From contig JAFSXN010000084.1 of the NCBI GenBank assembly GCA_017444015.1, positions 1 through 32,608 of the forward strand: a DNA stretch of 32,608 nt. Reading direction: 5' to 3'. Made by a program: the position numbers and the translations under genes. Origin of the DNA: Lachnospiraceae bacterium. Its GTDB lineage: Bacteria; Bacillota; Clostridia; Lachnospirales; Lachnospiraceae. Below, in pieces: positions 8,775-31,467 of this stretch (position 1 is its first letter; every line of letters starts with the position of its first letter). The notes under the pieces are model-generated. The model was given only the letters and a program-made list of their open reading frames with translations. It was not told where the DNA came from and did no database searches.

Positions 8775-9026
8775 ACTCTTCAAGTCTTCCGGTTCCTCTT
8801 GTTCTCATACATCAGCTGATCCGAGCGGCGTACGGTGTCGTTTAAGCTGCGGTCGGTTTCGGGATCGTATTCGGCGATTCCAAGAGCGACGTGGACCTGC
8901 TCCCAGCGGTTCTTTGTAGACGAGCAGATCTCCTTCTGCGCCTCCTCGAAGCGGCGGATCAGCTCCTCCCTGTTCTGATAATCCTCTCCCATCAGGATCA
9001 TAATAAACTCATCACCGCCAATTCTA

Positions 9027-9092
9027 TACTCGCGAACGCAATTAATTGCCGTTTTTGATAAAGCAAACGTACTGGAATTGCGTTCGCGAGTA
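9027..9092. mobile_element. 66-bp palindromic miniature element, copy 2 (short form)
   Basis: The element begins TACTCGCGAACGCAATT and ends with its exact 17-bp inverted complement, AATTGCGTTCGCGAGTA, flanked by TA on both sides (9025-9026, 9093-9094). Its core matches the copies at 9361 and 25922, but it lacks their extra 33-bp arm. It lies inside the GGDEF domain of the broken gene and is open in that frame, adding about 22 codons. Deletion of around 50 GGDEF residues at the same point suggests recombination or insertion with deletion. Confidence 0.8.
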
Positions 9093-9360
9093 TAATTGTC
9101 GAACCCGCCCTTGTTGCGGACATGGGTCAGAGCGTCCTCAAAGACCTGTTTATTCAGAGCATGGATCAGGCGCTCCTCCTCGATCGCCTTCCGCTCGGCA
9201 CGGATGCTTCGGATCAGAAGAACTAAGATCAAGATCGGAGCGGTCTTTGCTTACCGCGAAAAAGAAATCCGAGGAGCCGATCTTCCAGACAGGAACAAGG
9301 GTTGCGGGATTTGTATAGATATCCAGGGTAACAAAGGCATCCAGTTCACTGTCAAGCTTA

Positions 9361-9459
9361 TACTCGCGAACGCAATTAATTGCCGTTTCTGATAACGCAA
9401 ACGTACTGAAATTGCGTTTGCGAGTCCGATTAATCGGCACCGAAAAGCGTTAACCAGTA
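9361..9459. mobile_element. 99-bp palindromic miniature element, copy 1 (long form)
   Basis: It runs from TACTCGCG to CCAGTA on the plus strand, flanked by TA at 9359-9360 and 9460-9461. Removing the element and one TA joins the host gene in frame across the solute-binding domain (EESLL to KLDSEL), which shows a two-base TA target duplication. By hand alignment it matches the copy at 25922-26020 at 90 of 99 positions. It is too short to encode a transposase, so it would be non-autonomous. TA duplication with terminal inverted repeats is typical of IS630/Tc1-mariner-derived miniature elements. Confidence 0.85.
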
Positions 9460-10011
9460 TAAGCAGCGATTCCTCCTCCGGACCCGAAAATTCTACAAGC
9501 TCCGCCGTAACCCCGTGCTCCTTCTCCCAGTTCAGAAAAAGCTCGCTCTGAATACTCCCTTTGGCGACGCCGATCCGCTTTCCGTTTAAGGAGGTATAGT
9601 CCTCGGAGACGATCTCCGTATTTTCGGGGGATACAAAGACATAGTAAGCCTCCGTCCCCATCGGCAGATAGGAATACTGGATTTCCTTTGCCCGCTCCTC
9701 TGAATAGGATATGTTCCCCATCAGGTCGATCTCGCCATCCTTTAACATCTGGAACAGCTCGGACCAGCTGCCCTCGACATACTCATAGCTCCAGCCGGTA
9801 TAGGCCGCGACCTTCTGCTGGAATTCATAGGTATAGCCCGAGCGCCTACCATATTCGTCAATGATACAGTAGGGAGCCTCATGCCAGCCGATCCGTACCG
9901 TTTTCGTTTCCGCTTCTTCGCTGCCCTGTACCGTAACGACAAAAGGCCGGCAGAAAACGCCGGCAACAACCATAAAGATAATTAAGGAAATTATTTTTAT
10001 TCGATTCTTCA

Positions 10012-12522
10012 TCAGACCTCTTCTTTTACCGTAAAGTCGATCGCCTCATCCGCGGGAATCGGCTTACTGAAGAAGTACCCCTGAATCGTATCCGCCTTAA
10101 ATTCCCTGAGGCGCTTAAACTGCCAGTCCTCCTCCACACCCTCGATGATCATCTCCTTATCGAGACCGTGCATCAGCTGTATGATATCCCGGATAAACTG
10201 ATCCTTGCCGTCTACCAGATAGTTATCTACCAGGGACTTATCCAGCTTGATGACATCCACCGGTATATAGGTCAGATAACCGAAGGAAGAATACCCCGTT
10301 CCAAAATCATCCATCAGAAGCCGGATCCCCATCTCCTTGAACCGGTTGAAGAGGTTTGCGGACTGAGTGGTCTGATCGAGGAAGAGGCCCTCCGTCAGCT
10401 CGATCTCAATATACTTCGTCGAAATATCATATTTCTCAAGCAGCTCCTCAACGAAATTCACATAGCCGATATCGTTGATCTGATTGCTGGAAAAGTTGAT
10501 GGAAACCGGATGCAGCTCCTTTCCCTCGTCCCGCCAGGCGGCAAGCTGCTTAATTACAAGCTCCGTTGTAATCCGGCCGATTCTCCAGATCCAGCCGTTC
10601 TCCTCGGCCACCGGAATAAACTTCCCGGGATACATCCCCGGCTCCTTCATACGAACCAGAGCCTCGTACCCGCTTACCTTAAGGGTCTGGGAATCGATCT
10701 GGGGCTGATAGAGCATAAAGAAGCCGTCGTTCTCAAAGGCCTCTAAGAGCTTTTCCTTGATTACGCTCTCTTCCCGAAGCTTTGCCTTCATCTCGTCCGC
10801 AAACAGGAAGGCGCCGTTCCCTCCTCTGGACTTCGCCTCGTACATGGCGTTTTCAGCGTTTAAGATATGCTGATCCGTCGTCGTAACGCCGTCGGAATTG
10901 GAAATACCAAGACTTGCGGCCATGGAAATCTCTCCGACGCCAACGGGAATCGTTGTCGAAAAGATTTTCAGCAGCTCCTCAACGATATCGTCCCCGACCT
11001 CAACGTGCCTGTCCGGCACCATAAACAGAAATTCATCGCCGCCGTACCTGGCAAGGAACCACCCGTGCTTTTCTGCGGCCTCCTTCAGAAGATTAGCGAT
11101 AAACCGGAGAACATCGTCCGTGGCCTTATGTCCGTAGCTCTCGTTTACTCCCTTAAAACCGTCGATATCCGCCATCAGAATCGAATAGGTATCCTCCGGC
11201 TTCAGATCCGCCCGAAGGTGCTCTCCCGCGGCTCTTCGATTCAATATCCCCATCAGATCGTCATGCTCTGCCCGATAGGTCATTTCCTCGTGGGATTTGG
11301 CAAGACTCTCCTGCGACTTCTTAAGCTCCTCGCTGATCCTCCTTGCCCTGGATAACGAGATCTGCGCAGAGAAGACCAAAAGCACCAGGGCGATCCCGAT
11401 CAGGACTACCGGTGGAAGGATCTCCCCGTAATATTCGATAAAGCTCTCCGGGCGGTTATAGATCTCAGCGCCCTCCGGGATCAGAGACAGATCCAGCTGA
11501 TACTTCGTAAGCATATTGTAGTCGTAGGCAGACTTGCCGGGGCTGTGCATTTCCAGGGGCATATCCTCGACATCCCGTCTCCCTTCGAGGATATCCACAA
11601 CCCTCTGGGCCGCCTGTCGGCACTGCTCGGTAAAGTCGAGGTAGGAGCCCCCGATCACGCCGGTATTCTCCGCTCCCTCATAATTTCGAAAGATTGGAAC
11701 ATTCGCTTCATTTACAACGGTATGGGTACGATCCAAAAGGGAATAGGTATTTCCGGAAATGTCGGAGTAACAGGTCATATAGAAAAGGATCCCGTCCTCG
11801 GGTATATTGTTCAGAGCCCGCTTCAGCTCGGTCAACGTCATCAGAGAGGTATTAATATCGGTAAAGGTATAGCTCGGGTAGTTTCCCGCAAAATCATAAA
11901 AGGTCTTGGCATCGGCAGCTCCCGCCGCGGACAGGTCATGCAGCCCTACGATCGTTCTCGAATCGGGAAAGAGCGCCATCGCCGTCTCCAACGTATCGTA
12001 GAAATAATCCGTTTCATAAAAACCCGTCACAAGCGGAGTCCCGTCCGCTCTCTGCGCCAGCGCCTGATCATTGATCCCGAAGAAAACGATCGGTATGCCG
12101 GAAAACAGGTCATTCTGATATTGAAGCGCAAATTGCAGCGCGTCGTCGTCTCCGACCAGCATGGCCTCGTACTGCCGCCTGTCGGTCATATGCGCCTTCA
12201 TGTACTCATAGAAGATCTGACGGTCCAGGACCGTACTGAAATTCTTTGCGTCCATAAAGACCACATCATATTCGATACCGTTGGGATAGAGGACCTCTTC
12301 GATCCCCGCGACCTGAGAATCATAGGTGAAATACAGGGGCGTATAGGAACACAAAAAGAGAACCCGATGCGAAACCTCCGCCGGGGCCTCTACGGATATC
12401 TCCTTCTCCGCAAGACTGTTATTGAAGATCCGAATAATCAGGAAGACAGCAGAAATTAGACAAATTATACTGACTCCGATGATGATTGCGCGGACGCGAC
12501 CTAGGATCCGTTCCTGCTTCAC
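10012..12522 (-). CDS. Membrane GGDEF-EAL protein with periplasmic-binding-like sensor domain
   Basis: The 836-residue protein has a first membrane helix (about 12-32), an extracytoplasmic domain resembling ABC substrate-binding proteins (about 50-345; VLFLCSYTP, GIPIVFFGIND, VPIFRNYE) and a second helix (about 369-388). A short coiled coil leads to GGDEF (about 418-580) with intact RYGGDEF at 492-498, and then EAL (about 590-830) with EAL at 620-622, MDDFGTGYSS, EGVEE and QGYFFSKP. Both catalytic signatures are conserved, so it may synthesise or degrade c-di-GMP depending on ligand binding. Translation starts at a GTG (12522) seven bases after GGAGG, and a strong promoter lies at 12595-12623. 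Its stop overlaps the ATG of the SBP-GGDEF gene as TGATG. An inverted repeat, AAGGAG with CTCCTT, in the leader may partly mask the ribosome site. Confidence 0.92.
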   Translation of the reverse strand: MKQERILGRVRAIIIGVSIICLISAVFLIIRIFNNSLAEKEISVEAPAEVSHRVLFLCSYTPLYFTYDSQVAGIEEVLYPNGIEYDVVFMDAKNFSTVLDRQIFYEYMKAHMTDRRQYEAMLVGDDDALQFALQYQNDLFSGIPIVFFGINDQALAQRADGTPLVTGFYETDYFYDTLETAMALFPDSRTIVGLHDLSAAGAADAKTFYDFAGNYPSYTFTDINTSLMTLTELKRALNNIPEDGILFYMTCYSDISGNTYSLLDRTHTVVNEANVPIFRNYEGAENTGVIGGSYLDFTEQCRQAAQRVVDILEGRRDVEDMPLEMHSPGKSAYDYNMLTKYQLDLSLIPEGAEIYNRPESFIEYYGEILPPVVLIGIALVLLVFSAQISLSRARRISEELKKSQESLAKSHEEMTYRAEHDDLMGILNRRAAGEHLRADLKPEDTYSILMADIDGFKGVNESYGHKATDDVLRFIANLLKEAAEKHGWFLARYGGDEFLFMVPDRHVEVGDDIVEELLKIFSTTIPVGVGEISMAASLGISNSDGVTTTDQHILNAENAMYEAKSRGGNGAFLFADEMKAKLREESVIKEKLLEAFENDGFFMLYQPQIDSQTLKVSGYEALVRMKEPGMYPGKFIPVAEENGWIWRIGRITTELVIKQLAAWRDEGKELHPVSINFSSNQINDIGYVNFVEELLEKYDISTKYIEIELTEGLFLDQTTQSANLFNRFKEMGIRLLMDDFGTGYSSFGYLTYIPVDVIKLDKSLVDNYLVDGKDQFIRDIIQLMHGLDKEMIIEGVEEDWQFKRLREFKADTIQGYFFSKPIPADEAIDFTVKEEV

Positions 12523-12594
12523 TGTAGTTCCTCCAAGGAGCCATGGGGTCTCCTTAGCGTTTCCTGCAACTAACCTTTATGTAAACCACAGAAA

Positions 12595-12623
12595 ATTATA
12601 CTTCATCGGAGAAATGTTTTCAA
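12595..12623 (-). promoter_or_regulatory. Strong promoter for the GGDEF-EAL gene at 12522
   Basis: TTGAAA (12623-12618) and a perfect TATAAT (12600-12595) are separated by exactly 17 bp on the minus strand. The -35 box overlaps the stop codon of the upstream GGDEF-EAL gene (12620), so 10012-12522 can be expressed independently of the genes before it. Confidence 0.75.
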
Positions 12624-14275
12624 TGATAAATTTTAGATTTTAAACGCTCTTCAAAGTCCCCGGGCGGCAGAGGTCTGTCGTAATAATAGCCCTGGATCAC
12701 ATAGCAGCCCACGCTGTTGATCAAAGCCAGTTGGTCGTCCCGCTCGACACCCTCGCAGAGAATATCCATCCCCAGCTCCTCGGCCATATGGATGATATTT
12801 CTTAAGATGATCTCGTCCTTCCAGGAAAAGTCGTCGGTATTTACAAAGGACCGGTCGAGCTTTAAAGTATGGACCTGAAAATCCCTGAGGGTCGAAAGAG
12901 AGGAATAGCCGCTTCCGAAGTCATCAATGGCGGTCATGATCCCCTTCCGGTAGAGCTTGCTGATAAAGCCGGACAAAACGCCCTGCTCCTCTGTATCGAC
13001 TGTCTCGGTCAACTCAACCTCGATCAGGCTCTTGTCGATCCCCGATTCCTCAACGATCTTATTGATATTATCCGCGAGTTTGCTATCCTTCAGATCCTTT
13101 CTGGAGAAATTGACCGAAACGGTCACCGGTTCGATTCCCTGAAGGATCCAGCTCTGGATATCCCTGCAGGCGCGTTTTAAGACATAATAGTCAAGCGCCA
13201 GACACTCTCCTGTCCCTTCCAGAGCAGGAATGAAAACCCCCGGAGAGATCATCTTCCCGTCATGGAACCAGCGCACCAGACCCTCCGCGCCTACCAGCGT
13301 TTTGTTCCTGGAATCCACCTTGGGCTGATAGTAGACGACGAATTCTTCTTTCCTAAGTCCCTCGGAGAAAAACTTCATAACCGAGCGCTGTTCATTCAGC
13401 TGATTGATCAGGCGGTCGTTAGCGTAGGCGATCCGCTGATGGATCACGTTCTTGGCCTGATTCAGAGCGATGGAGGGACGGCTTACGACTTCTCCCGGGT
13501 CGGCGACATCCGACTGGATATCCCAGATGCCGATGGTCGAGGACAGATGCAGTTCTTCATGCTCCTCCGAATCTAGGAAGATCTTGATATCCGAAAGCAG
13601 CTCGATAAAATCCTTCTGGCGCTTCTTTAAGATCAGAGCCATAAAGTTATCGCCGCCAAGATGCCCGGCCGCCTCATCCTTTGTAATAAAATCCCGGATG
13701 ATCTCGGCATAGTCCCGTAAAACCTCGTCGCCCCGCTCTCTTCCGAAATGCCGGTTGATCTCGCCAAAATCCTTCAGATTAAAGTAGAACGCCGTATAAT
13801 TCTTTAACGGGATATCGCGCTTCATCAGCTCCGTCACATCCCTTAAATACCCCGATGCGTTCGGGAGGATCTCAGTACTTCCTGCCTTCCCTTTCTTTTC
13901 GGACTCCTGTGTAAGATGCAGAAGCTCCAGATAGAGCAGGCACTCCGTAGCAAAGACCTCCAGATCCTCGCGCTCATACCGGGAGATAGCTCCCGTTTCG
14001 GAATAGATATAGAAAACGACATTCCGCTTCTGATTCAGCTTAAACGAAAAATTGAGCGGTTCGCCCGCCGGCACGCCGCCCTCCTTTTCATAGAGAATGA
14101 TATCCTTTTTTTCACCCTCGATCTTAAAGTTTCCTAAAAGCTCCGCCTCGATCCCGCAGACCCCGTAAAACGAAGCAACGATCTCAAGGCCATGCCGCAG
14201 TCTGTCGACCGAAAGCGGCTCTCCCGCGATCCTTCGCAGGAACTCAAGATGGAGGTTGTCAGTTTCCTGCGTCAT
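12620..14275 (-). CDS. Cytoplasmic protein with degenerate GGDEF and EAL-like domains
   Basis: The protein has about 551 residues, no membrane helix and an N-terminal region (1-125) of unknown fold. A GGDEF-like domain follows (about 145-295) with the motif LGGDNF, then an EAL-like domain (about 300-545) in which EAL is replaced by EGL (AEGLVRW). Other EAL residues remain: VNFSRKDL, ELTET, AIDDFGSGYSSL, CEGVE and QGYYYDRP. GGDNF departs from the consensus at the catalytic glutamate, so cyclase activity is doubtful. EGL variants vary in activity, so this may be a weak phosphodiesterase or a c-di-GMP or GTP-binding regulator. The start is ambiguous: ATG at 14287 abuts its AGAGG site, so I prefer 14275. 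Either start overlaps the 3' end of the hydrolase gene, implying coupling. Confidence 0.85.
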   Translation of the reverse strand: MTQETDNLHLEFLRRIAGEPLSVDRLRHGLEIVASFYGVCGIEAELLGNFKIEGEKKDIILYEKEGGVPAGEPLNFSFKLNQKRNVVFYIYSETGAISRYEREDLEVFATECLLYLELLHLTQESEKKGKAGSTEILPNASGYLRDVTELMKRDIPLKNYTAFYFNLKDFGEINRHFGRERGDEVLRDYAEIIRDFITKDEAAGHLGGDNFMALILKKRQKDFIELLSDIKIFLDSEEHEELHLSSTIGIWDIQSDVADPGEVVSRPSIALNQAKNVIHQRIAYANDRLINQLNEQRSVMKFFSEGLRKEEFVVYYQPKVDSRNKTLVGAEGLVRWFHDGKMISPGVFIPALEGTGECLALDYYVLKRACRDIQSWILQGIEPVTVSVNFSRKDLKDSKLADNINKIVEESGIDKSLIEVELTETVDTEEQGVLSGFISKLYRKGIMTAIDDFGSGYSSLSTLRDFQVHTLKLDRSFVNTDDFSWKDEIILRNIIHMAEELGMDILCEGVERDDQLALINSVGCYVIQGYYYDRPLPPGDFEERLKSKIYH

Positions 14276-15110
14276 CTGATGTCTCATCCTCTTTCAGATA
14301 ATAATTCATCCAGTTCTTCGCAAGGTTGATCCACTCGGTACAGTTCTCCTCTAACCTCGACCCGTCGTCCTGTCTCGTTTTCCAGTCGGCAAGACTCAAC
14401 CCATGCTCTCCCTTTTCAAAGATATGGCACTCCACCGGGATATGCTTTTCCATCAGGGCATTGACCCAAAGCAGCGTATTCTGGACGGGAACCATTTCAT
14501 CCTCACAGGTATGCCAGATAAAAGTCCTGGGAACGCTTTCGGAAACCTGATGCTCAAGGCTCAGCCTGTTCCACAGCTCCTTGTTTGATTTCTGGGAGCC
14601 TAAGAGATTCTCAAAGGACTCATAATGGGCATACTCTCCCGAAGTAATCACCGGATAGCCAAGGATCAGACCGTCAGGTCTCAGGACCTCCTTCTCGACC
14701 CCAAGCCTCGTCGCGACAAAGCTCTCCTCCCAGAAGCAGGCGTAGCTTGCCGCAAGATGTCCTCCCGCGGAAAAGCCAAGGAGAACAATCTTGTTGGGAT
14801 CCACGTGCCACTTTCTCGCGTTTTTTCGGATATGATTCAACGAACTCCCTACCTCAAGCAGCGCCTCCGGATACTCCGCCGGAGCCACCGAATACCGTAA
14901 GACCGCGGCATGAAAGCCCATTGCCATAAACTGTAAGGCGACCGGATCCGCCTCTCTGTCCGACGTAAAGCTGTAGCCTCCGCCCGGGCAGATCACAACG
15001 ATCGGCCGGTCATTGACGAACAGCTCATCCGACGCGTCCTGGATATAGGTACAGAGCCTGACCTGATTCTGCGCGCCGTCAGCGGCGATATCCCTGATCT
15101 CTATTCTCAT
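14259..15110 (-). CDS. Alpha/beta hydrolase (esterase/lipase-like)
   Basis: The 283-residue cytoplasmic protein has an oxyanion-hole region VVICPGGGYSFTSDREADP, the nucleophile elbow GFSAGGHLAASYA (serine near residue 115), a probable catalytic aspartate in WHTCEDEMVPV and a histidine in EKGEHGLSL. This is the layout of acetyl esterase / BD-FAE-like hydrolases that deacylate sugars or small esters, and no secretion signal is present. The exact substrate cannot be told. The ATG has GGAG upstream. The gene overlaps the start of the GGDEF-EAL-like gene and follows a run of hairpins after the HD-domain gene. Pairing with a signalling protein may simply reflect a mixed operon. Confidence 0.88.
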   Translation of the reverse strand: MRIEIRDIAADGAQNQVRLCTYIQDASDELFVNDRPIVVICPGGGYSFTSDREADPVALQFMAMGFHAAVLRYSVAPAEYPEALLEVGSSLNHIRKNARKWHVDPNKIVLLGFSAGGHLAASYACFWEESFVATRLGVEKEVLRPDGLILGYPVITSGEYAHYESFENLLGSQKSNKELWNRLSLEHQVSESVPRTFIWHTCEDEMVPVQNTLLWVNALMEKHIPVECHIFEKGEHGLSLADWKTRQDDGSRLEENCTEWINLAKNWMNYYLKEDETSDDAGN

Positions 15111-15152
15111 TCTTTTTCTCCTCGAATTCTAATCTCCGTGCCTCATTTATTG

Positions 15153-15275
15153 ATAGGAAACGAATTTATTCGTTTCCTATTGCGCCGATTGCGGAGCGCT
15201 GAAAGCGCCTTCCAAACCGCAATCGTGCGCATCAATACGTATCGTAAACGAATTTATTTAATTCGTTTACGATAC
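15153..15275. repeat. Three adjoining palindromes between two genes
   Basis: Three hairpins follow one another: ATAGGAAACGAA with its complement (15153-15180, 4-nt loop), a GC-rich stem with an inner hairpin (15182-15230), and GTATCGTAAACGAATT with its complement (15239-15275). The third includes the stop codon of the HD gene (15269-15267). There is no T-run on the minus strand, so these are not simple terminators. Related but degenerate sequence lies at 26265-26335. Confidence 0.6.
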
Positions 15276-15743
15276 CGGCTTCAGCTTCTTAACGTCCTTC
15301 CTGATCGTCTCCTCGAGGGAACAGAGCTTATCCGCGATACACACAAGCACCGCCTCCCTGCACCTTGGGATATGCGTTAACGTCAACGGCCACATATGGC
15401 TTTTGATGATATTCTGCTCCCGCTTCGTCAGACCGAAATCCTTCTTCGCGTTTGTCAGAGCGATGTGGGGATGGTGGTAACCATGCAGCTTGTCCCCGTG
15501 ATCATGCCAGTCATAGAGAAAATAGTCGTGTAGCATCGCGCCCTTTAACATTTCCTTTTCGTTGACGCGGATATGCAGCCTCCTGGCTAACTTCCGGCTC
15601 TTTCTCGCCACCCTCAGACAATGGGTATAGGTCGAGATATTCCCGTGCTGGGTATACTCCTTTAATTTCCGGTAGCGTTCATCCTCCTGAAGCCTTCGGA
15701 CCTCCTCGGAAAACTCTCTGTTTTCCAGTTTAATATAGCGCAT
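15267..15743 (-). CDS. HD-domain phosphohydrolase-like protein
   Basis: The 158-residue cytoplasmic protein has the metal-binding pattern of the HD superfamily: an upstream histidine in STYTHCLRVA, the HD pair in GAMLHDYFLYDW, further histidines in HGYHHPHIA and IKSHMWP, and a distal aspartate in VCIADKLCS. HD proteins hydrolyse phosphate esters of nucleotides, and many small stand-alone ones in Firmicutes have unknown substrates. There is no GYP signature, so it is not a c-di-GMP phosphodiesterase of that class. It follows the ECF S component by 8 bp and probably shares its transcript. Its last codons and stop lie within a palindrome, which may have replaced the original C-terminus. Confidence 0.85.
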   Translation of the reverse strand: MRYIKLENREFSEEVRRLQEDERYRKLKEYTQHGNISTYTHCLRVARKSRKLARRLHIRVNEKEMLKGAMLHDYFLYDWHDHGDKLHGYHHPHIALTNAKKDFGLTKREQNIIKSHMWPLTLTHIPRCREAVLVCIADKLCSLEETIRKDVKKLKPVS

Positions 15744-15751
15744 CCATACTC

Positions 15752-16312
15752 CTAAACCGACGCATTTAATCTCCGTAAGAGCGGGTACAGCGCCGTAGAT
15801 AACACGACACCTATAATCCCCTGGATCAGATTGAAGGGTACTCCCGCCAAAGCCCCCGCAAACGAAACGGAAAGCCCTCCCGCTCCTTTTAGTACCACAA
15901 GCCCTTCATACAGGAAATAGCCCGCCGTCATCACCAACTCGCTTATTATACCAGAAAAAATCATGTTCGGCACCATAAATTTTCCGATGGGCGCGCCCGT
16001 CCGGTTATTACGGGAATCTAAAAGAGCAAACAGCTTTGCCGCCGTAAACGCGCAGAGCGCCTTGATCACAAGCGTCGCCGGGGCATAGATCACATAGCCG
16101 GAGATCAGGTCAGCGATCCCTGCGCCAAGCCCGGCCGCAAGAGCCCCGTACACAGGTCCTAAAAAGAGCCCGGACAGCAGCACGATCCCATCGCCAGGGT
16201 TCACATACCCGGTTCCCGGGATCGGGATCTGGATCACGAGGGTCGCGAGCGCGGTCAACGCCGCAAACAGTGCGGTTCTTGTAATAATAGCGGTTTTGTT
16301 ATCGTTCATCAT
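15752..16312 (-). CDS. ECF transporter S component (substrate-binding membrane subunit)
   Basis: The 186-residue, very hydrophobic protein has about six membrane segments and the ECF S-component pattern: an N-terminal TRTALFAALTALATL helix, GTGYVNPGDGIVLLSGLFLGP, and a GLGAGIADL repeat region. S components capture vitamins or precursors such as folate, pantothenate, pyridoxine or hydroxymethylpyrimidine for a shared energising module. No EcfA or EcfT gene is adjacent, consistent with a group II system. I cannot settle the substrate, and no riboswitch is recognisable upstream. The ATG at 16312 follows GAGGAAGG by seven bases, and a consensus promoter with inverted repeats lies just upstream. 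Confidence 0.88.
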   Translation of the reverse strand: MMNDNKTAIITRTALFAALTALATLVIQIPIPGTGYVNPGDGIVLLSGLFLGPVYGALAAGLGAGIADLISGYVIYAPATLVIKALCAFTAAKLFALLDSRNNRTGAPIGKFMVPNMIFSGIISELVMTAGYFLYEGLVVLKGAGGLSVSFAGALAGVPFNLIQGIIGVVLSTALYPLLRRLNASV

Positions 16313-16342
16313 CTGACAGCCTTCCTCTTCTCTAGTTTACCT

Positions 16343-16415
16343 ATCGACATAATAGGTTTTATGTATCATACTCTGAAGAAAGGCGATTGTCAACCAGATT
16401 TCTTTCCCGGTTGAC
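16343..16415 (-). promoter_or_regulatory. ECF S-component promoter with two inverted repeats
   Basis: A perfect TTGACA (16393-16388) and TATGAT (16369-16364) are spaced by 18 bp on the minus strand. Two dyads surround the promoter. GTCAACC with GGTTGAC (16389-16415) overlaps the -35 box, and ACCTAT with ATAGGT lies just downstream of the -10 box around the expected transcription start. Either could be an operator; the second could also fold in the leader RNA. This suggests repression according to vitamin status, but the regulator is unknown. Confidence 0.65.
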
Positions 16416-16473
16416 ATCATTCCCCCTGCCTGCTGCCGTGTTATAGTAAGTGAATATAAATCGTTGTCTATAT

Positions 16474-19400: not shown

Positions 19401-20748
19401 CGATCTCCTGTTCAACTAAGAGGGAATCCCGCATCTCTCTCGTAAAATAGTTGATCCGGTAGACATAGCTGTCCTTGATGGCCTGAAGAGCGATATAGGC
19501 GCGGTCGCAGGCAATCTCGATATCCGTCTCCCCCGGCTCCAGCTTATACATACCGACGTGCATAAAGACCGAATAATCGAGGTTATGCCACTTTTCTTCG
19601 CCGTTGACGATCGCCTTAAGTCTTCTCTCCGCCGCGCGGTGAAGGCCCGCGGAGCAGCAGGTGATGAAATGATCGGACTCGACCCGTCCGTAGGTGCATT
19701 TCGCTGAATCCAGATTCCTCTTCAGGAATTCGGCAAACTGAACGATGATCCCGTCCCCGGCCCGGGAGCCGAACATTTCATTGACTGCCTTGAAACGGTC
19801 GATATCCCAGACCGAAACAATATATTCCTTATTCGGATTCTCACTGACTAACTTCTCCGTCTCTTCAAAAAAGGTCTCCCGGTTATAGATACCCGTCAGG
19901 GAATCGACCCTTGCCATAAACTGATATCTGGCGATTTCCTCCCGGTAAGGCTTCAGGTCAGCCTCCTTCGTATATTCCGGTCGGAGTACAAGCGAAAACT
20001 GCTTTTTGCTCCGGACCACGATAACATTCCGAAGGCAGATCTCAAAGGCGGTAAAGCTGCCGTTTCTGTTTTTCAGCCTTGTACTGAAGCGGGTCGTCGT
20101 TGTCGGATCGGTATGCCCGAACAGCTTCTGATCAAAGCCCTCCCTGTCGTCAGGGGCAACGAACTCCCCGAACAGTCGATCCTGTAATTCCTCCGGCCGC
20201 TTTTCGGGATCGTAACCGAGCATGGACGCGGCTCTTTTTCCGATATATTCTATGGTATAATCTTCGTCCGCCTCTGTAAGAACGATCAGGCCGATATTCA
20301 GGGTCTCAACGACAATGGAAGAGCGTTCCAGATGCTCCGTCCAGCGCTCTTCATCCTCCTTGACATCATTGATATAGGTATAGACCAGATTGTTGACGAT
20401 ATTCTTAACAAAGCTGGGATCCAGGGGCTTTGACAGGGTATAGCTCGCGCCGATACGGATAGCCTTTTCCGAGATCGCGTCATTCATGGCATCATGCGTA
20501 ACGCCGATCAAAATGCTGTGATATTCTTTGCTGTGCTTGATATCCGCGCAAAAGCTCAGAAGCCCCTCGGTATCCTCCGAGAGATCGATCATAGCAAAGT
20601 CGATCGTATGCGCCTCGATGATCCCCTCCGCGGTTTCCCGGTCGGAGCAGAAATAAACGGTATAATCCGTCTCCAACAGAGCCTTTAAGGTCTCGGCTCC
20701 GATCGATGGCTGCGACAATATCAGTATTTCAGCTTTTCTTGATGCCAT
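16474..20748 (-). CDS. Giant multidomain c-di-GMP protein (REC-PAS-GGDEF-EAL-REC-PAS-GGDEF)
   Basis: About 1,424 residues, without membrane helices. Order: receiver-like domain (3-125), PAS (about 145-260), GGDEF-like domain (about 280-445) whose signature is replaced by VESDHF at 356-361, and an EAL domain (about 450-695) with EAL at 481-483, VNLSRMDF, MDDFGSGFSS, AEGVET and QGYYFYKP. A second receiver-like domain (about 710-830) and PAS-like sensory regions (about 850-1240) follow. A terminal GGDEF domain (about 1250-1420) has SLTGLYNR, DLDGFKRVND and SGDEF at 1335-1339. I expect an intact phosphodiesterase, one plausible cyclase (SGDEF is a tolerated variant) and one degenerate cyclase that may bind GTP allosterically. 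In the first receiver the acceptor region reads FAMIDLSED, so phosphorylation is uncertain. I chose ATG 20748, eight bases after GGAGG, rather than an upstream TTG that lies within the ribosome site. Confidence 0.9.
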   Translation of the reverse strand: MASRKAEILILSQPSIGAETLKALLETDYTVYFCSDRETAEGIIEAHTIDFAMIDLSEDTEGLLSFCADIKHSKEYHSILIGVTHDAMNDAISEKAIRIGASYTLSKPLDPSFVKNIVNNLVYTYINDVKEDEERWTEHLERSSIVVETLNIGLIVLTEADEDYTIEYIGKRAASMLGYDPEKRPEELQDRLFGEFVAPDDREGFDQKLFGHTDPTTTTRFSTRLKNRNGSFTAFEICLRNVIVVRSKKQFSLVLRPEYTKEADLKPYREEIARYQFMARVDSLTGIYNRETFFEETEKLVSENPNKEYIVSVWDIDRFKAVNEMFGSRAGDGIIVQFAEFLKRNLDSAKCTYGRVESDHFITCCSAGLHRAAERRLKAIVNGEEKWHNLDYSVFMHVGMYKLEPGETDIEIACDRAYIALQAIKDSYVYRINYFTREMRDSLLVEQEIVKDSEEALKNREFFVMYQPIVDAKTREIVAAEALVRWRKPDGGFVSPGAFIPTFEKNGFVSRVDRYVWEEVCDFQARRIEAGKRTVPVSVNLSRMDFYNSELYEELNAVAKQYGLDGRHIKVEVTESAYMDQTLELMSTMNKFRGSGYQVLMDDFGSGFSSLNMLKDFEVDVLKIDMKFMDSIDTSERAGNILYSIIQMAKTIRMQIVAEGVETVNQFEMLKNMDCDCIQGYYFYKPLPAEEFEAKLDLDEKEMSADSLGAYSRLLYFGTDEQEADEIVRLLENGAELTVVKTSEEALKYLEQYFGNVSLALIDYDAVGADCDRFLEAVTGRRFYGHIPIMLIAKAETVDSIAHHIWEGVLDIVTRPYNTSVLKNRMEHAIEYYAVESERAELRMMGKGALLRQQMNSFFENSIAGIVRVTVDLSEELNILELSYVNDRFLTLHVLTLEEAQQKKTLSGLLSRIVYVGLFGVDRNVYTAIQNKDPFLLREYSVEQRDGSLCNIVSAFSFKYLSEMVQIDLILLENTSSLERRVIDIVDALSRYYEKDGEFDIWRYYIDNDVIDHYLKQPDGDYKRVLEYNASRNVLALAKANDTSEALKGAKEVYQALRDGAESLERDILVKHEVDGKLRDRWDRVTYFRKKDPRGDYAIGFMRDVTGEYRIHHLSWAHDRYMELMSDADVYIEADITDNRIINAEELNGILAPYGITESCGYDEMLRIFRNNIDENDHDRVLSLLSRKELLRQYRLGNTLLRTDFMGQTLRRPLWSWYEAMVLLGENPKTKHIEIGLKLTCIEQNRKEAERRIMEYDSLTGLYNRVMFEKTINRQLDDRIRSGLTQESAFILIDLDGFKRVNDVFGHDVGDSILKTIAKLITEELPEDAVTGRISGDEFVAFVPDAESREEICERLGQINEKTCYELDATSKTGEIIRITTSIGVVFTKDTTDRFVKLYPKADLALYQARDAGRNTYRVYENPL

Positions 20749-20767
20749 GCGCTTGTCCTCCAAGGTA

Positions 20768-20797
20768 ATTATACATGATAATAGAGGGCTTTTTCAA
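20768..20797 (-). promoter_or_regulatory. Candidate promoter for the giant GGDEF-EAL gene
   Basis: TTGAAA (20797-20792) and TATAAT (20773-20768) are 18 bp apart on the minus strand. The -10 box ends only 19 bp before the ATG, giving an unusually short leader of about 12-14 bases that includes the GGAGG site. A promoter further upstream cannot be excluded. Confidence 0.45.
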
Positions 20798-20871
20798 CTT
20801 CGAAAACGTTTTTGTAAAATGTTTAATAAATGCTTTAGAATTCGGGACATCGGAAAATAGTCGGCATATGA

Positions 20872-20900
20872 TTGATTTTTTGGCTGATTCGTTATACAAT
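20872..20900 (+). promoter_or_regulatory. Promoter of the amino-acid ABC transporter operon
   Basis: TTGATT (20872-20877) and TACAAT (20895-20900) are separated by 17 bp on the plus strand, 72 bp before the lipoprotein start. It is divergent from the promoter of the large GGDEF-EAL gene within a 224-bp intergenic region. Confidence 0.55.
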
Positions 20901-20972
20901 ATGCGGGACGTTTTTGTGTAACGGTCACGCTTTTTTGTGATCGTTATGATTCAGAAAGAGGAGGAAACGATT

Positions 20973-21818
20973 ATGAAAAAAAGACTTTTGGCAGTTCTTG
21001 CCGCTACGGCAATGATCACGGGCCTTGTGGGATGCGCAGGCGTTCCGGCGGCTACGGCGGCTCCCTCTGCTCCCGCGGCTGAGACGACAGAAGCGGCTGA
21101 TACGGCGGCTTCGGATGAGGCGGACGCTTCCGGAAGCGGCAAGGTATGGAGCATCGCTACGGATACTTCCTTCAAGCCCTTTGAGTATACCGACGAGAAC
21201 GGCGACTTCGTAGGGATCGATATGGATATCCTCGCTGCGGTAGCTGAGGATCAGGGCTTTGAGTACGAGGTTCAGGTACTCGGCTGGGACGCTTCCATCG
21301 CGGCTTGTCAGGCAGGTCAGGCGGACGGAATGATCGCGGGCGCTTCGGTAACCGAAGAGAGAAAGGAATCCGGCTGGATCTTCTCCGATGGCTACTATGA
21401 TGCCAATCAGTGTATGGCAGTTGAGAAATCCTCTGATATTACCGGCTTTGACGGACTCGAGGGAAAATCGGTAGCTGTAAAGACCGGAACCATGAGCGCT
21501 TCCTACGCGGAGAGCCTTTCCGAAGAGTATGGCTTTACGGTGACCTACTTCGAGGATTCCCCGACCATGTATACAGCCGTCATCGGCGGACAGGTAGCGG
21601 CCTGCTTTGACGATACCCCGATCATGGCAGCGAATATCAAGGACGGCGATCTTTCCATGAAGCTCGTGGACGGAACAGGAAATGATCCCGCTGCTTACGG
21701 CTTTGCGATCTTCAATGCCGACAATCAGGAATTGGTTGATATGTTCAACGCCGGGCTTGCCAATATCAAGGCAAACGGGACCTACGATGAGATCCTTGCG
21801 AAATATCTCGGAGAATAA
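20973..21818 (+). CDS. Amino-acid ABC transporter solute-binding lipoprotein
   Basis: The 281-residue product begins with a lipoprotein signal peptide (MKKRLLAVLAATAMITG, lipobox LVGC) and an Ala/Thr-rich linker. A family-3 solute-binding domain follows: WSIATDTSFKPFEYTDENG, GIDMDILAAVAEDQGFEYE, AGASVTEERKESGWIFSDGYY, and GKSVAVKTGTMSASYAE. These are typical of receptors for glutamine, arginine or other polar amino acids; the ligand cannot be assigned more closely. The start ATG has GAGGAGG upstream, and a longer frame from 20937 has no such site. It is followed after about 70 bp by the permease and ATPase, with an attenuating hairpin in between, the usual way to make more binding protein than transporter. 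Confidence 0.93.
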   Translation: MKKRLLAVLAATAMITGLVGCAGVPAATAAPSAPAAETTEAADTAASDEADASGSGKVWSIATDTSFKPFEYTDENGDFVGIDMDILAAVAEDQGFEYEVQVLGWDASIAACQAGQADGMIAGASVTEERKESGWIFSDGYYDANQCMAVEKSSDITGFDGLEGKSVAVKTGTMSASYAESLSEEYGFTVTYFEDSPTMYTAVIGGQVAACFDDTPIMAANIKDGDLSMKLVDGTGNDPAAYGFAIFNADNQELVDMFNAGLANIKANGTYDEILAKYLGE

Positions 21819-21841
21819 TCAGACAGTGTTTTGACTCAAAT

Positions 21842-21879
21842 GGCGGGCTTTCCGTTTTTTATGGGGAGCCTGCCTTTTT
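21842..21879 (+). terminator. Partial terminator between binding protein and permease
   Basis: GGCGGGCTTTCC pairs with GGGGAGCCTGCC (with wobble pairs) and is followed by TTTTT. Its position between the lipoprotein gene and the permease suggests an attenuator that lowers permease and ATPase transcription relative to the binding protein. Confidence 0.65.
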
Positions 21880-21890
21880 AAGAGGTGCTT

Positions 21891-22565
21891 ATGGTAAAAA
21901 TAATTACAGTCTACGGCTCGCTGCTGCTTACAGCCATGGGGCGGACCCTGCTGCTGGCGCTGCTCGGTCTCTTCTTTGCCTGTATCGTCGGTTTGTTCTT
22001 CGGAATGCTAAGTGTCCTTACGAACCGTGCCTGCAATATCATCGCGCAGATCTTCGTCGATGTCGTACGGGGCGTCCCCATGATCGTTTTAGCGTTCTTT
22101 ATCTACTTCGGTATGCCGTATTTCTTTAATTCGGTGATCGGAGGCTTCAATGTCACCCTGACCGCGCTGCAGGCCGGTACGATCTGTCTGGCCTTAAACT
22201 GCGGCGCTTATATGTCAGAGATCATCCGCGCCGGGATCCAGTCCGTCGATATCGGGCAGATGGAGGCGGCAAGGTCCTTAGGGCTTTCCTACGGGATCGC
22301 GATGCGAAAGGTCGTTCTGCCGCAGGCCATCCGGACCATGATCCCCAGCATTATCAACCAGTTCATCATCACCTTAAAGGACACCTCGATCCTTTCGGTC
22401 ATCGGCTTTCCGGAGCTTGTCAATACGGCCAAAAACGTCCAGGCGAATACCTTTATGGCCTTTCAGACCTGGGCCATCGTCGGAGTAATGTATCTGATCG
22501 TAATAACGATCCTTTCAAGATGCGCGAAGATGCTGGAAAGGAGGCTGAACGTTGGGCGGGAATAA
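21891..22565 (+). CDS. Amino-acid ABC transporter permease
   Basis: The 224-residue membrane protein has about five hydrophobic helices and belongs to the HisM/GlnP permease family. Family hallmarks are [20 protein letters not shown], the EAA loop [20 protein letters not shown] that docks on the ATPase, and [19 protein letters not shown]. It should form a homodimeric channel for a polar amino acid delivered by the upstream lipoprotein. I chose the ATG at 21891, with AGAGG five bases upstream, over a GTG at 21885 that lies in the ribosome site. Its 3' end overlaps the ATPase start by 14 bases. Confidence 0.94.
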
Positions 22566-23301
22566 TACAGCACAGACAAAGATCCACGTTTCCCATTTGA
22601 AAAAGAATTTCGGAGAGTTGGAGGTCCTGAAGGATATCTCTGTGGATGTGACAGAGGGCGAGGTCGTTGTGGTCATCGGCCCCTCCGGAAGCGGAAAATC
22701 CACGTTTTTGCGGTGCTTAAACCGCCTCGAGGAAACAACGGGCGGAGAGGTCTTCATCGACGGCGTGGATATTACGGAAAAAAAGGTCAATATCAATCAG
22801 GTCCGCGAAAATATCGGAATGGTTTTCCAGCACTTCAACCTGTTCAATAATATGAATGTCCTCGACAATATGACCCTTGCTCCGATCCAGTTAAAGAAAT
22901 GCAGTCCGGAGGAAGCCAGGCAAAGAGCGCGGGAAATGCTGAAAAAGGTCGGGCTTGAGGAGAAAGCCGAGAGCTATCCGAATCAGCTTTCCGGAGGCCA
23001 GAAGCAGAGAGTCGCAATTGCGAGAGCTCTCTGTATGCAGCCGGATATCATGCTCTTTGATGAACCGACCTCAGCGCTCGATCCGGAAATGGTCGGCGAG
23101 GTCTTAAAGGTTATGAAGGACCTTGCGGCGGACGGTATGACCATGGTGATCGTTACCCATGAGATGGGCTTTGCCAGAGAGGTCTCCGACCGGATCCTGT
23201 TTATGGACGGGGGCTATATTATCGAAGAGGGAACGCCCGAGGAGCTCTTACAGCATCCGAAGGAAGCAAGGACGATAGATTTTCTGAATAAGGTACTCTG
23301 A
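22552..23301 (+). CDS. Amino-acid ABC transporter ATP-binding protein
   Basis: The 249-residue ATPase has every nucleotide-binding motif: Walker [13 protein letters not shown]-loop MVFQHFNLF, signature [15 protein letters not shown], Walker [15 protein letters not shown], and the switch histidine in [10 protein letters not shown]. The length and sequence are those of the GlnQ/HisP group of polar amino-acid importers, which completes the SBP-permease-ATPase set. Translation appears to start at a TTG (22552) seven bases after AAAGGAGG, inside the end of the permease gene; no nearby ATG fits. The TTG start may temper expression. Confidence 0.94.
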
Positions 23302-23312
23302 GGGTATCTATT

Positions 23313-23446
23313 AGTACAGTCCGAAGCGCTTGCCGCTGAGGACGTACCAAAACGTATATTATGCGATGCGGTTCGTCCTTTTGCGAAGCAAACTTATATG
23401 ACGAACCGCGTAACTGTTCAGAAAACAAGGGGTTCTGAACAGTTAC
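23313..23446. repeat. Abutting hairpins in the leader of the cytidylate-kinase-like gene
   Basis: Three inverted repeats follow the ABC operon: an imperfect GTAC-GTCC / GGAC-GTAC stem (23313-23346), GCGGTTCGTC with GACGAACCGC (23368-23409), and GTAACTGTTCAGAA with its complement (23410-23446). The last ends four bases before the AAGGAG site of the gene at 23465. No T-run follows, so termination is unlikely; RNA processing, mRNA protection or translational control is possible. Confidence 0.55.
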
Positions 23447-23464
23447 CTCTAAGGAGAGCTTGTT

Positions 23465-24064
23465 ATGAAGAATATTATTACGATCAGCAGACAATTCGGA
23501 GCAGGAGGAGGCGAGATCGGAAGAAAGGTAGCGGATCAGCTCGGCTACTACTATTGCGACCGCGATATGATCATCCACTCGGCGATGCAGGATCAGAGCC
23601 TCCCGAGGGACCTGTTTCGGATCTATGACGAAAAGCTGCCCTTCAGTCTCGGCTTCGGGCAGAGTCTGTTTGATTTTTACAACAGACCCCTTTCAGAAAG
23701 CCTGTTCAACGCCCAGAAAAAGGCGATCCTTGCCATCGGCGAGAAGCGCGACTGCGTCATCGTCGGCCGTAACGCCAATGTCATCCTGAAGGAATTTGAC
23801 CATTCGCTTCATATCTTTATCGCTGCCGAGCAGTATTACCGGGTCAAGAGGATGCGGGAGCGGATGCCCGATGTTTCCGACGACGAGATCATCGAGCGGA
23901 TCAAAACCGTCGACAAAAAACGGAAAAAATACTGTTCTTATTATACCAATACGGTGTTTGGCGACGCCTCCGCCTACGATCTCTGCTTAAAAAGCTCGAC
24001 ACTCGGAATCGATACCTGCGTCGAGCTGATCTGTCAGATCGCAAGAGGAGAAGCCGTGACATAA
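23465..24064 (+). CDS. Cytidylate kinase-like family protein
   Basis: The 199-residue protein begins ITISRQFGAGGGEIGRKVA, the P-loop-type start of the cytidylate-kinase-like family (Cytidylate_kin2), followed by CDRDMI, a GRNANVIL strand, an Arg-rich lid (VKRMRERMPDVSDDE) and KKRKKYCSYYTN. Members are distinct from the canonical Cmk and are frequent near transporters in Firmicutes; the nucleotide or other substrate has not been settled. The ATG is preceded by AAGGAG. It may be read through from the ABC operon or from its own hairpin-rich leader. A strong terminator follows at 24215-24253. Confidence 0.88.
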   Translation: MKNIITISRQFGAGGGEIGRKVADQLGYYYCDRDMIIHSAMQDQSLPRDLFRIYDEKLPFSLGFGQSLFDFYNRPLSESLFNAQKKAILAIGEKRDCVIVGRNANVILKEFDHSLHIFIAAEQYYRVKRMRERMPDVSDDEIIERIKTVDKKRKKYCSYYTNTVFGDASAYDLCLKSSTLGIDTCVELICQIARGEAVT

Positions 24065-24088
24065 CTTCTGTTATTTATTACTGCGAAT

Positions 24089-24200
24089 CGAGTAGGGGAG
24101 ACGAAGTCGAACCCTACTCGCCGCGCGGCCCGATGATTGCTACGCAATCATGGGTTGCGCACCCGCGTCCGGCTTCAGCCGGAAAACTTCCATACGCGGG
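24089..24200. repeat. Series of hairpins downstream of the cytidylate-kinase-like gene
   Basis: CGAGTAGGG pairs with CCCTACTCG (24089-24120), ATGATTGC with GCAATCAT (24133-24151), and CCCGCGT with ACGCGGG enclosing CCGGCT/AGCCGG (24162-24200). They precede a conventional terminator. No coding potential is evident here. It could be a structured 3' UTR or an old repeat cluster. Confidence 0.5.
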
Positions 24201-24214
24201 CCTGCGCATAAAGA

Positions 24215-24253
24215 CGCCGGACGGACAGCCTTGTCCATCCGGCGACTTTTTTT
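24215..24253 (+). terminator. Rho-independent terminator
   Basis: CGCCGGACGGACA pairs with TGTCCATCCGGCG around a four-base loop and is followed by ACTTTTTTT. It ends the plus-strand ABC and cytidylate-kinase-like transcription unit. The T-run touches the stop codon of the opposing FeS/receiver remnant. Confidence 0.85.
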
Positions 24254-24471
24254 AGCGCAGCAATCTCTCTAACGTCGAGAATACCATATTAGGCTCTACC
24301 GGCTTGGAGAGATGCTCGTTCATCCCTGCGTCCGCCGTTTACATCGATCCGCCTCTCCTCACCGTCCACATCCACGGACATACAGGCGCCCATGGCAGGA
24401 CAGGCGTTGACGCATTTGTTGCAGCCGATACATTTGTCATTGGTATAGACCAAAGAAGTGTTTGTACTCAT
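24252..24471 (-). pseudogene. Remnant of an FeS-domain hybrid sensor with receiver tail
   Basis: From the ATG at 24471 (GGGGGA site upstream) the frame encodes a ferredoxin-like N-terminus, YTNDKCIGCNKCVNACP, with a CxxCxxCxxxCP 4Fe-4S motif. It breaks off after IDVNG near 24335. The bases that follow, in another frame, read DAGMNEHLSKPVEP and VFSTLERLLR before a stop at 24252, which is the typical C-terminal end of a receiver domain. I infer that a large hybrid protein, probably an [FeFe]-hydrogenase-like or other FeS sensor fused to kinase and receiver domains, lost its middle by deletion. The central architecture is a guess from families with similar N-termini. Confidence 0.7.
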
Positions 24472-24555
24472 AAGTAATCCCCCGATTGATGTGAATACAG
24501 GATCCAGCGGGTAAAACTCCAGACTGTGAGCCGAAAATTTTGACATGGATGATCC

Positions 24556-24604
24556 AAGAAAAACCCCCGCAAATAACTATGTTATCATATCATAACTTGC
24601 GGGG
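24556..24604 (-). terminator. Terminator of the alcohol dehydrogenase unit
   Basis: Read on the minus strand, CCCCGCAAGTTAT pairs with ATAAC-like sequence and TTGCGGGG across a loop, then GTTTTTCTT. It lies about 65 bp after the stop of the gene at 24669-25757. Confidence 0.7.
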
Positions 24605-24668
24605 TCGGGCAATCATCATAAACGGATTTAATAAATTCGTTCCCTGTATATATAATGTATACCTGATA

Positions 24669-25757
24669 TTACGAATATTTGATTTCAGAAAATACAATTT
24701 CTCTGAGGATTTCCGGGCTCAGAGAATAGACGGCCGATTTCATCTTGGAAGGGTTTGAGGCAACAACCGAAAACGCGCGCTCCAAAACGCTCTCCGAAAC
24801 AGACAGCGGTTCAAACAGACGGTCCAGAAATCCCGAGAACTCTGATAGATCTGTAAAACCGGCCTGCGAAAGCAGCCCCTCTTTCATAGAATGAGGAGCA
24901 TGATCCAAAAAAGCCGGAAGAAAATACCCTACTGCTCTGCCATGCGCAATCCCGCAGTCATAGGTAAGAATATAACTCAGCGCATGCGGAAGCGAGGTAC
25001 CGGTCTGCGCGATCGCGATCCCCGCGAGGGTAGAAGCTCTCATCATATTCTCATGATCTTCAGGCTCCGCCTGTTTTGCTCCTGTAAGCGCTTCCTTTGT
25101 TTCCTGCCAGACAGACAGCCCTTCCGACACCGCCATATGGCTGTAACAGGAGGCCTTCGCGCTCAGTCCGCTTTCCATTAAATGCGCCAGAGCGTCGATC
25201 GAGGTATTCACAAGCATTTCCCGGGGCGCCTGTTTAAGATATTTTCCGTCAATAAGCGCCAGCTTCGGAAAAACTCTGGCGGGAAAGGACATTTTGGTAT
25301 GCAGGGAATGCCTGGTCAGTACGGAAACACCGGTAACCTCGGAACCTGTCCCGCAGGTAGTCGGGATCGCGGCAACCGGCAGTGCCTCTCCGTCAGTCTC
25401 GCCATAAAGCTGCTCTTCCTGCCAGGTAGGATGCGCGATCATAAGAGCGATTCCCTTGGCCGCGTCGAGAGGAGAACCGCCTCCGATGCCGATCACAAAA
25501 TCAACCTTTTCCTCAAGTCCAAACTCCCTGCCCCTGATCACCGTTTCAACACCAGGATTCTCCTCCACCTCGGAGAACAAGGCATACTCTTTGCCATATT
25601 CCTTTAATACGGAAATCACTTCGTCAAGAGAGCCGTTTTTCTTCGCGGAGCTTTTTCCTGTCACGATCAATGCGCGCTGCCCCAAAGCGCAAAGCTCCTT
25701 CGCATGCTTTTTCACACAATCGGACTCGTCGTAAATTCTAACAGGCAGGTAAAACAT
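24669..25757 (-). CDS. Iron-containing alcohol dehydrogenase
   Basis: The 362-residue protein is a family-III (Fe-ADH) dehydrogenase. The N-terminal NAD(P)-binding half carries VIGIGGGSPLDAAKG and IPTTCGTGSEVT. The C-terminal half supplies the metal ligands: the D and H of SIDALAHLMES, the H of GTSLPHALSY, and the H of CGIAHGRAVG. All four ligands are present, so it should be active, reducing an aldehyde or ketone or oxidising an alcohol; the substrate is unknown. The start ATG overlaps the stop of the upstream cupin gene as TGATG, so expression was coupled to a gene now broken by an element. Disruption of the cupin frame may therefore lower translation of this gene. Confidence 0.92.
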   Translation of the reverse strand: MFYLPVRIYDESDCVKKHAKELCALGQRALIVTGKSSAKKNGSLDEVISVLKEYGKEYALFSEVEENPGVETVIRGREFGLEEKVDFVIGIGGGSPLDAAKGIALMIAHPTWQEEQLYGETDGEALPVAAIPTTCGTGSEVTGVSVLTRHSLHTKMSFPARVFPKLALIDGKYLKQAPREMLVNTSIDALAHLMESGLSAKASCYSHMAVSEGLSVWQETKEALTGAKQAEPEDHENMMRASTLAGIAIAQTGTSLPHALSYILTYDCGIAHGRAVGYFLPAFLDHAPHSMKEGLLSQAGFTDLSEFSGFLDRLFEPLSVSESVLERAFSVVASNPSKMKSAVYSLSPEILREIVFSEIKYS

Positions 25758-26223
25758 CAGTCTTCTCCTTTGTAAACAATGACTGCAACCAGATCGACGG
25801 TTTCCTCGGTTCTGTTTGCGATCCCATGCCCTGTTCCCGGAGGACAGATCGTCACATCTCCCGCGCTTACGGTTTTAACCTCGCCTCCATCGTTATATTC
25901 AGCAGTTCCGTTCAGAATATATACTGGTTAACACTTTTCGTTGCCGATCAACCAGACTCGCAAACGCAATTTCAGTACATTTACTTTATCAAAAACGGCA
26001 ATTAATTGCGTTCGCGAGTATAAAACAGCTCACTGTCCTTTTCATGAACGTGATAGCCGATACTTGTTCCGGGCTCTAACGTAATTCTTGAAAACAGACG
26101 CCCTTTATTACACAGCTCTTCCGGGGAGACAATAAGATTTGTCAGCTTAACCGTTCCATCGCCATCCCTCATATGCTCCCGGTATTCAATATTGCATTCT
26201 TCTTTTTTCCTTATCATAGTCAT
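25757..26223 (-). pseudogene. Cupin-domain gene interrupted by the 99-bp element
   Basis: The gene begins at 26223 (or ATG 26217) after AGGAG and encodes a small single-domain cupin. The first half has the metal-binding motif GTSIGYHVHEKDSELFY. At 26022 a 99-bp element shifts the frame and introduces a stop after nine residues. On the far side the protein resumes with ILNGTAEYNDGG and AGDVTICPPGTGHGIANRT, ending at 25757 within the TGATG overlap with the dehydrogenase. Excising the element and one TA restores ELFYILNG in frame and a protein of about 121 residues. Cupins of this size bind metal and sugars or act as isomerases; its job beside an Fe-ADH is not known. Confidence 0.85.
25922..26020. 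mobile_element. 99-bp palindromic miniature element, copy 3 (long form)
   Basis: It runs from TACTGGTTAAC to CGTTCGCGAGTA on the plus strand, opposite in orientation to copy 1, and is flanked by TA at 25920-25921 and 26021-26022. Hand alignment gives 90 of 99 identities to copy 1. Removal with one TA restores the cupin frame exactly, fixing the TA duplication. It encodes no protein. Confidence 0.87.
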
Positions 26224-30299: not shown

Positions 30300-30310
30300 A
30301 TCAGTGCATA

Positions 30311-31463: not shown

Positions 31464-31467
31464 TCTC

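Follow-up and report, generated by a model that had tools for sequence, protein, structure and literature searches.

The RUP element of pneumococcus is described as a 107-bp sequence present in 108-110 copies, with terminal inverted repeats (TIRs) and TA targets, that sometimes breaks genes (PMC2229807, PMC3049150). Its mobilisation by IS630-Spn1 has been proposed, the ends of RUP being said to resemble those of IS630-Spn1 (PMC2229807, PMC3049150), and copies of RUP are reported to lie sometimes inside other repeats (PMC10969869). The Correia (NEMIS) elements of Neisseria are presented with a 107-bp form, a 24-bp TIR and TA ends (PMC2229807). The ERIC/IRU elements of enterobacteria are listed as short, with TA termini, a 7-bp TIR and a duplication (Table 1 of PMC2229807), and their RU-1 form is given as 127 bp (PMC2759123).

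The window analysed here, a stretch of 32,608 nucleotides, is contig C19 of a 3.77-Mb Lachnospiraceae assembly of 201 contigs, and it holds three copies of a short palindromic element. Two of them, at 9361-9459 and 25922-26020, are 99 bp each, lie on opposite strands and agree at 90 of 99 positions; the third, at 9027-9092, is 66 bp long and has perfect terminal inverted repeats of 17 bp. An earlier sequence-only reading had given these coordinates, lengths and matches, and all proved exact on recomputation. TA stands directly outside both ends of each of the three copies. The elements, their parts and their host genes are as follows.

8780..10012, minus strand: SBP_bac_3 + GGDEF signalling gene, host of both left copies, broken
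9027..9092, plus strand: 66-bp palindromic remnant, single in the genome, with TA at 9025-9026 and 9093-9094; read as a deletion scar
9361..9459, plus strand: 99-bp element whose subfamily numbers 14 identical copies in the sample, with TA at 9359-9360 and 9460-9461
25760..26217, minus strand: cupin gene split by the right copy (coordinates without the stop codon)
25922..26020, minus strand: 99-bp element whose subfamily numbers 20 identical copies in the sample, with TA at 25920-25921 and 26021-26022
25996..26020, minus strand: 5' terminal inverted repeat, 25 bp, TACTCGCGAACGCAATTAATTGCCG, with 17/25 matches to the 3' repeat in the own-genome representative
25922..25946, minus strand: 3' terminal inverted repeat, 25 bp, inward reading TACTGGTTAACACTTTTCGTTGCCG
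25955..25971, minus strand: internal arm, complementary to the 5' repeat, making the first of two adjacent predicted hairpins

The copy at 25922..26020 interrupts the cupin gene, and the one at 9361..9459 sits within the solute-binding part of the SBP/GGDEF gene. The latter gene carries two inserts, is missing about 60 GGDEF codons and has an additional frame break between its two domains; it is therefore a pseudogene. The proposal that deleting an element together with one TA rebuilds sensible reading frames holds at both sites: the cupin frame becomes continuous and the solute-binding frame runs on. At the 66-bp site, for which no such claim had been made, the same deletion rebuilds no frame.

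The three copies are a small part of a large family. With at most two mismatches allowed, the 17-bp end occurs at 353 places in the genome (175 forward, 178 reverse), a count that includes the internal arm of every copy; the reversed control pattern occurs nowhere, so the copies are not due to chance. A 24-base version of the 5' end is found at 181 places (83 + 98), and the family thus comprises about 180 copies genome-wide. A BLAST search of the genome with a 99-bp copy gave at least 41 matches among the best 40 of 217 candidates; as just 40 of these 217 were scored, the pattern counts were used instead. Of the earlier description as three copies in two forms, all three copies are real, but they represent the window's share of about 180, and the 66-bp form occurs at one place in the genome.

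Lengths and contexts were studied in a subset of the genome, namely 347,375 bases that include the window, plus loci with 1.5-kb flanks; the stretches were picked because copies were present in them, except C158, which was picked for its IS630. Among the 91 distinct contexts in this sample, 78 copies are exactly 99 bp long, two are 106 bp and one is 100 bp. The remaining contexts, comprising both readings of the 66-bp copy and eight without a recognised end, are excluded from the 99-bp counts, while the two 106-bp copies and the 100-bp copy are retained in the counts of ORF avoidance and palindromes given below (81 contexts, 80 after duplicate removal). By anchored readings, in which some elements were possibly counted from both ends, 98 of 111 are 99 bp. 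Longer TIR-bounded pairs in the sampled loci, from 106 to 633 bp, are read as the 106-bp copies and as nested, truncated or adjacent copies. Three sequences are represented by 20, 14 and 13 identical copies, each copy at a different site, which points to recent bursts of movement.

A short sequence of 99 bp that has TIRs, lacks coding capacity and is scattered in about 180 almost identical, sharply bounded copies (length 99 bp in 78 of 91 contexts) fits a miniature inverted-repeat transposable element (MITE), that is, a non-autonomous DNA transposon. Our favoured explanation, to which we assign a probability of roughly 80%, is that the family consists of gene-less MITEs of about 99 bp with imperfect 25-bp TIRs, which insert at TA and are most likely mobilised in trans by an IS630/Tc1/mariner-type DDE transposase, and that the 66-bp copy is a deletion product. 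Such a transposase would recognise TACTCGYKAACGCAATTAAYTGCCG-type ends.

The anatomy of the 99-bp copies is uniform in outline. In their commonest form they start with the 5' repeat listed above and end, in inward reading, with TACTGGTTAAC...GTTGCCG; the two TIRs are imperfect (about 25 bp, 17/25 matches in the own-genome representative). Besides the two TIRs there is an internal arm that can pair with the 5' one, and the fold predicted for a single strand accordingly has two hairpins side by side. With DNA parameters, the predicted folding is more stable than that of shuffled sequences (z -3.3 to -6.4). This stability would suit a functional structured RNA or a regulatory repeat that is not a mobile element, but Rfam has no match at the element site, and the presence of insertions inside other repeats and genes, together with the many identical copies at different sites, makes such a function very improbable. 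A single weak Rfam match elsewhere in the window looks like chance. As a separate observation, an 18-base stub of the 5' end is followed at L036 1271-1430 (the same as L064 8055) by a palindromic unit resembling the 3' end, TACTGATTAACGAAAAGC...GCTTTTCGTTAATCGTA, possibly a nested or derived mini-element.

Insertion at TA is nearly invariant. TA stands left of the 99-bp copies in 78 of 78 cases and right of them in 75 of 78, and empty sites, as would be expected of insertion of the IS630/Tc1/mariner type, tell the same story. Following the suggestion to look for empty orthologous sites, we found relatives' cupin genes without the element, which is absent from nearly all relatives. The upstream piece of the cupin gene has a match in 9 of 37 same-genus genomes, own included. 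In all eight close relative loci (L150 to L156 and L158) the reading frame is uninterrupted and carries no insert, SELF being followed by YIL, and in the distant cupin L157 the frame likewise runs uninterrupted across the site. In relatives L161-L163 both pieces of the solute-binding gene lie in one frame; each is one codon longer near the site than the window minus the element, which limits the exactness of the boundary there to the frame.

Insertions into other repeats provide a second class of empty sites. Eight of 80 copies lie at the centre of an inverted repeat of another kind, which is rebuilt on deleting 99+2 bp (net score of at least 11, up to two mismatches allowed), against 0.37% of 3000 TTA control sites, genic as well as intergenic. 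Ten palindromic sites with a score of at least 8 were compared with the rest of the sample: the empty, core-identical palindrome recurs there for L015, L016 and L024, near matches alone were found for L003, L022 and L080, and no empty copy was found for L004, L028, L031 and L081. In the carrier genome G295, an element of 99 bp is nested in a second one and flanked there by TA left and right; the second spans 200 bp, of which 99 remain once 101 bp are subtracted. All these cases fit the gain of the element plus one TA, although an insertion of 101 bp without duplication would fit them too. With TA at either end of the element itself, the two routes give the same product and cannot be told apart. 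The insertion at TA with the boundaries put forward earlier is thus borne out, whereas the duplication of TA, although TA stands on both sides and empty sites lack the element plus TA, is matched equally well by a 101-bp insertion.

The target is asymmetric: the right flank holds about 3.7 bits over +3 to +7 and the left about 0.9 bits over -3 to -7. Among 80 right flanks in the own genome, AAT follows in 41 and TAT in 15, with no mirror of this on the left side, and the target motif can be written as T-TA-AATWA. This one-sided AATWA bias is strong in the own genome, hinted at in the carrier genome G020 and absent from the carrier G296. Tc1/mariner targets are usually symmetric around TA, and the asymmetry therefore counts against the favoured explanation. 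An asymmetric target, two adjacent hairpins predicted in the 99-bp copies and empty sites equally compatible with a 101-bp insertion without duplication would all suit a single-strand HUH/Y1 element, IS200/IS605 or REPIN-like, whose hairpins are recognised and which inserts directionally by a short target and without duplication. We nevertheless regard this as improbable, given that the own genome has 0 matches to a Y1 transposase (PF01797), that what the genomes have in common is an inverted repeat at either end and that the end paired by the internal arm seems, by inspection, to vary between genomes. To our knowledge, TIRs are not expected for HUH elements; here, inverted end repeats are present alongside the predicted hairpins.

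A MITE would be expected to avoid genes, and this one does. When sites were examined after removing the element and one TA, copies fell in ORFs of at least 200 aa at 14 of 81 sites, compared with 68% of 3000 random TA control sites and 71-75% of controls with target-like motifs; for ORFs of at least 100 aa the figures are 23 of 81 and 85% of controls. The solute-binding copy (ORF of 253 aa) is one of the 14 and the cupin copy (121 aa) one of the 23. We infer that insertions in genes would mostly be lost by selection. The same avoidance is an argument against every system in which the element is taken out of genes or messages. Removal from DNA or RNA, whether by IES-like excision or by translational bypass, would keep the host genes working, and the cupin frame is indeed restored by taking out exactly 101 bp. 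Nevertheless, we reject this possibility almost outright because copies strongly avoid ORFs; moreover, the SBP/GGDEF gene with its two copies is broken in further ways.

The 66-bp copy had been taken for a second form of the element, but several of its features resemble a recombination scar. It occurs at one place in the genome (search with exact 16-base arms and a loop of 22-50). Over its first 58 bases it is identical to a 99-bp subfamily, the only differences being at positions 59 and 66, exactly the bases that distinguish the terminal from the internal arm. Moreover, at its position the GGDEF domain passes abruptly from NKGGFDN to RIGGDEF. The downstream piece begins at position 78 of 161 of the PF00990 profile, and the short piece upstream of the copy has no Pfam match by itself. 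The NR-to-GGDEF spacing is 7 residues, compared with 65 and 69 in two intact GGDEF domains at own-genome loci, so that about 58-62 codons are absent. The reading that fits best is a deletion joining two 99-bp copies, although no intermediate of it was seen. The two copies would once have stood in one gene in opposite orientation, so placed that the first copy's internal arm and the second copy's terminal arm formed direct repeats (15/17). Recombination or slippage between these arms would leave a 5' arm, a loop and a perfect arm, that is, the 66-bp remnant, and the same deletion would take out the GGDEF segment between the two copies. Its flanking TAs and its perfect 17-bp ends might instead mark a true second mobile form made of two 5' ends, the GGDEF loss being coincidental; this is unlikely, considering that the form occupies one place in the genome versus about 180 long copies and coincides with the GGDEF gap. 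The deletion model suggests a way in which host DNA can be lost between inverted copies that have an internal arm, with a perfect palindrome left behind that mimics a separate element.

Which enzyme moves the family? Judged from the TA flanks and the ends, a transposase of the IS630/Tc1 type is likely but unproven. The earlier proposal of such an enzyme agrees with TA at both ends and with ends starting TACT, but no transposase with matching ends was found in the own genome, at 29 loci of relatives or in three carrier genomes. The enzyme had been reported absent from the window. The sole DDE_3 (IS630-type) gene found in the own genome, at L061, has the ends TATAGTAAACGAATTAA, unlike those of the 99-bp element, and on this ground the resident IS630 was rejected as the mobilising enzyme. 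The L061 ends share the layout of the element, TA and then TAGTAAACG, and by eye they resemble short AAACGAATT palindromes of the same genome. DDE_3 matches occur in 30 of 195 genomes, own included. The 29 loci of relatives that were searched, a part of all DDE_3 matches, yielded no pair of matching ends, with candidate end pairs available for just 10 of them and the other 19 having none; L118 shows a weak single end match with 5 mismatches. The carriers G295 to G297 have one DDE_3 gene, in G297, and the best inverted pairs of that IS630 start with TACT in one reading and are otherwise unlike the element ends. Overall, no IS630-type transposase gene bounded by the same TIRs was found in the genomes searched. 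Short-read assemblies often lose multi-copy insertion sequences, so the absence of a transposase from an assembly is weak evidence.

Two other regions of the window are also repetitive. Positions 15154-15274 hold a TA-flanked repeat cluster, composed of a GGAAACGAAT palindrome, a GATTGCGG...CCGCAATC core and a 35-bp TATCGTAAACGAATT palindrome, whose ends resemble the TIR of the L061 IS630; similar AAACGAAT palindromes number 14 in the 347 kb sampled. At 30310-32608, direct repeats of 174, 114, 46 and 32 nt, about 1-2 kb apart, surround two PIN-domain ORFs at the contig end.

The element is rare among relatives. A search for the 5' end in 295 genomes, own included, found matches in the own genome and in G020 only; 35 of 36 other same-genus genomes are without the 5' end, and G020, the remaining one, has a diverged form. 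A scan of named genomes for the element end gave at least seven places; those in Polaromonas and Blautia, with no TA in front, are read as chance. In viral contigs, the exact 25-base pattern and the IUPAC end pattern had 0 matches, and eight matches to a looser pattern, none with TA in front or with a second end in 130 bases, are likewise ascribed to chance. Plasmids and phages gave no match to the element at E 0.1.

Four carrier genomes could be compared with the own genome: G020, G295 (L083, Lachnospiraceae), G296 (L085, Eubacteriales) and G297 (L086, Lachnospiraceae). In these, 25 of 29 readings are 97-101 bp long with a mode of 99, some elements being counted from both ends; the remaining four readings (67, 117, 182 and 198) were taken as mis-called, nested or tandem, and 6 of 12 contexts in G020 and 1 of 8 in G297 had no end. 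The TIRs recur in all four genomes and their ends are alike, as judged in part from 13 hand-chosen representatives, the likeness of the 5' 24 bases being partly selected by the search pattern and that of the 3' end not so. Among seven representatives, also chosen by hand, interiors are near shuffles (z <2) in 18 of 21 pairs, the exceptions being G000 with two G297 types (3.3, 3.0) and these two types with each other (8.6). At L174 in G297, two 98-bp relatives stand in tandem with TG between them instead of TA.

The length kept despite the divergence of interiors is the least ordinary point of this family. In five genomes, ends are kept and interiors have for the most part become unrecognisable, while the total stays at 97-101 bp (mode 99, ~9.4 helical turns). 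These could be mini-transposons of gauged length with an asymmetric target, perhaps served by an unrecognised type of transposase that reads one target flank only, but we consider this idea speculative and doubtful. If it were true, the transposase, or the folded DNA on which it acts, would measure the end-to-end distance.

As a MITE, the family is a further representative of a known kind, its interesting features being the fixed length and the asymmetric target. A limited literature search found no description of such a MITE family in Lachnospiraceae, to which a heavily amplified one is now added. It offers a testable system: the minimal element measures 99 bp, there are signs that it moved recently, an orphan transposase can be sought and the length appears to be constrained. 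Within its own genome, the IS630 at L061 is similar in its TA-bounded layout (TATAGTAAACGAATTAA) and differs in end sequence. Compared with the elements outlined at the beginning, ERIC/IRU as listed there, for which a duplication is given, is similarly short, with TA termini and a TIR, but its TIR is 7 bp and its 127-bp form is longer. The Correia/NEMIS elements as described come near in size, TIR and TA ends (107 bp and 24 bp there, 99 bp and 25 bp here); however, their 155-bp form has 50 bp extra inside, whereas the present family has a main form of 99 bp and, as its short form, a single probable scar. RUP of pneumococcus appears, by description, to be the closest known analogue, sharing a size of about 100 bp, copy number, TIRs, TA targets, gene breakage and nesting in repeats; the difference is that the ends of RUP are reported to be like those of IS630-Spn1, whereas the ends of the IS630 resident here differ from those of the element.
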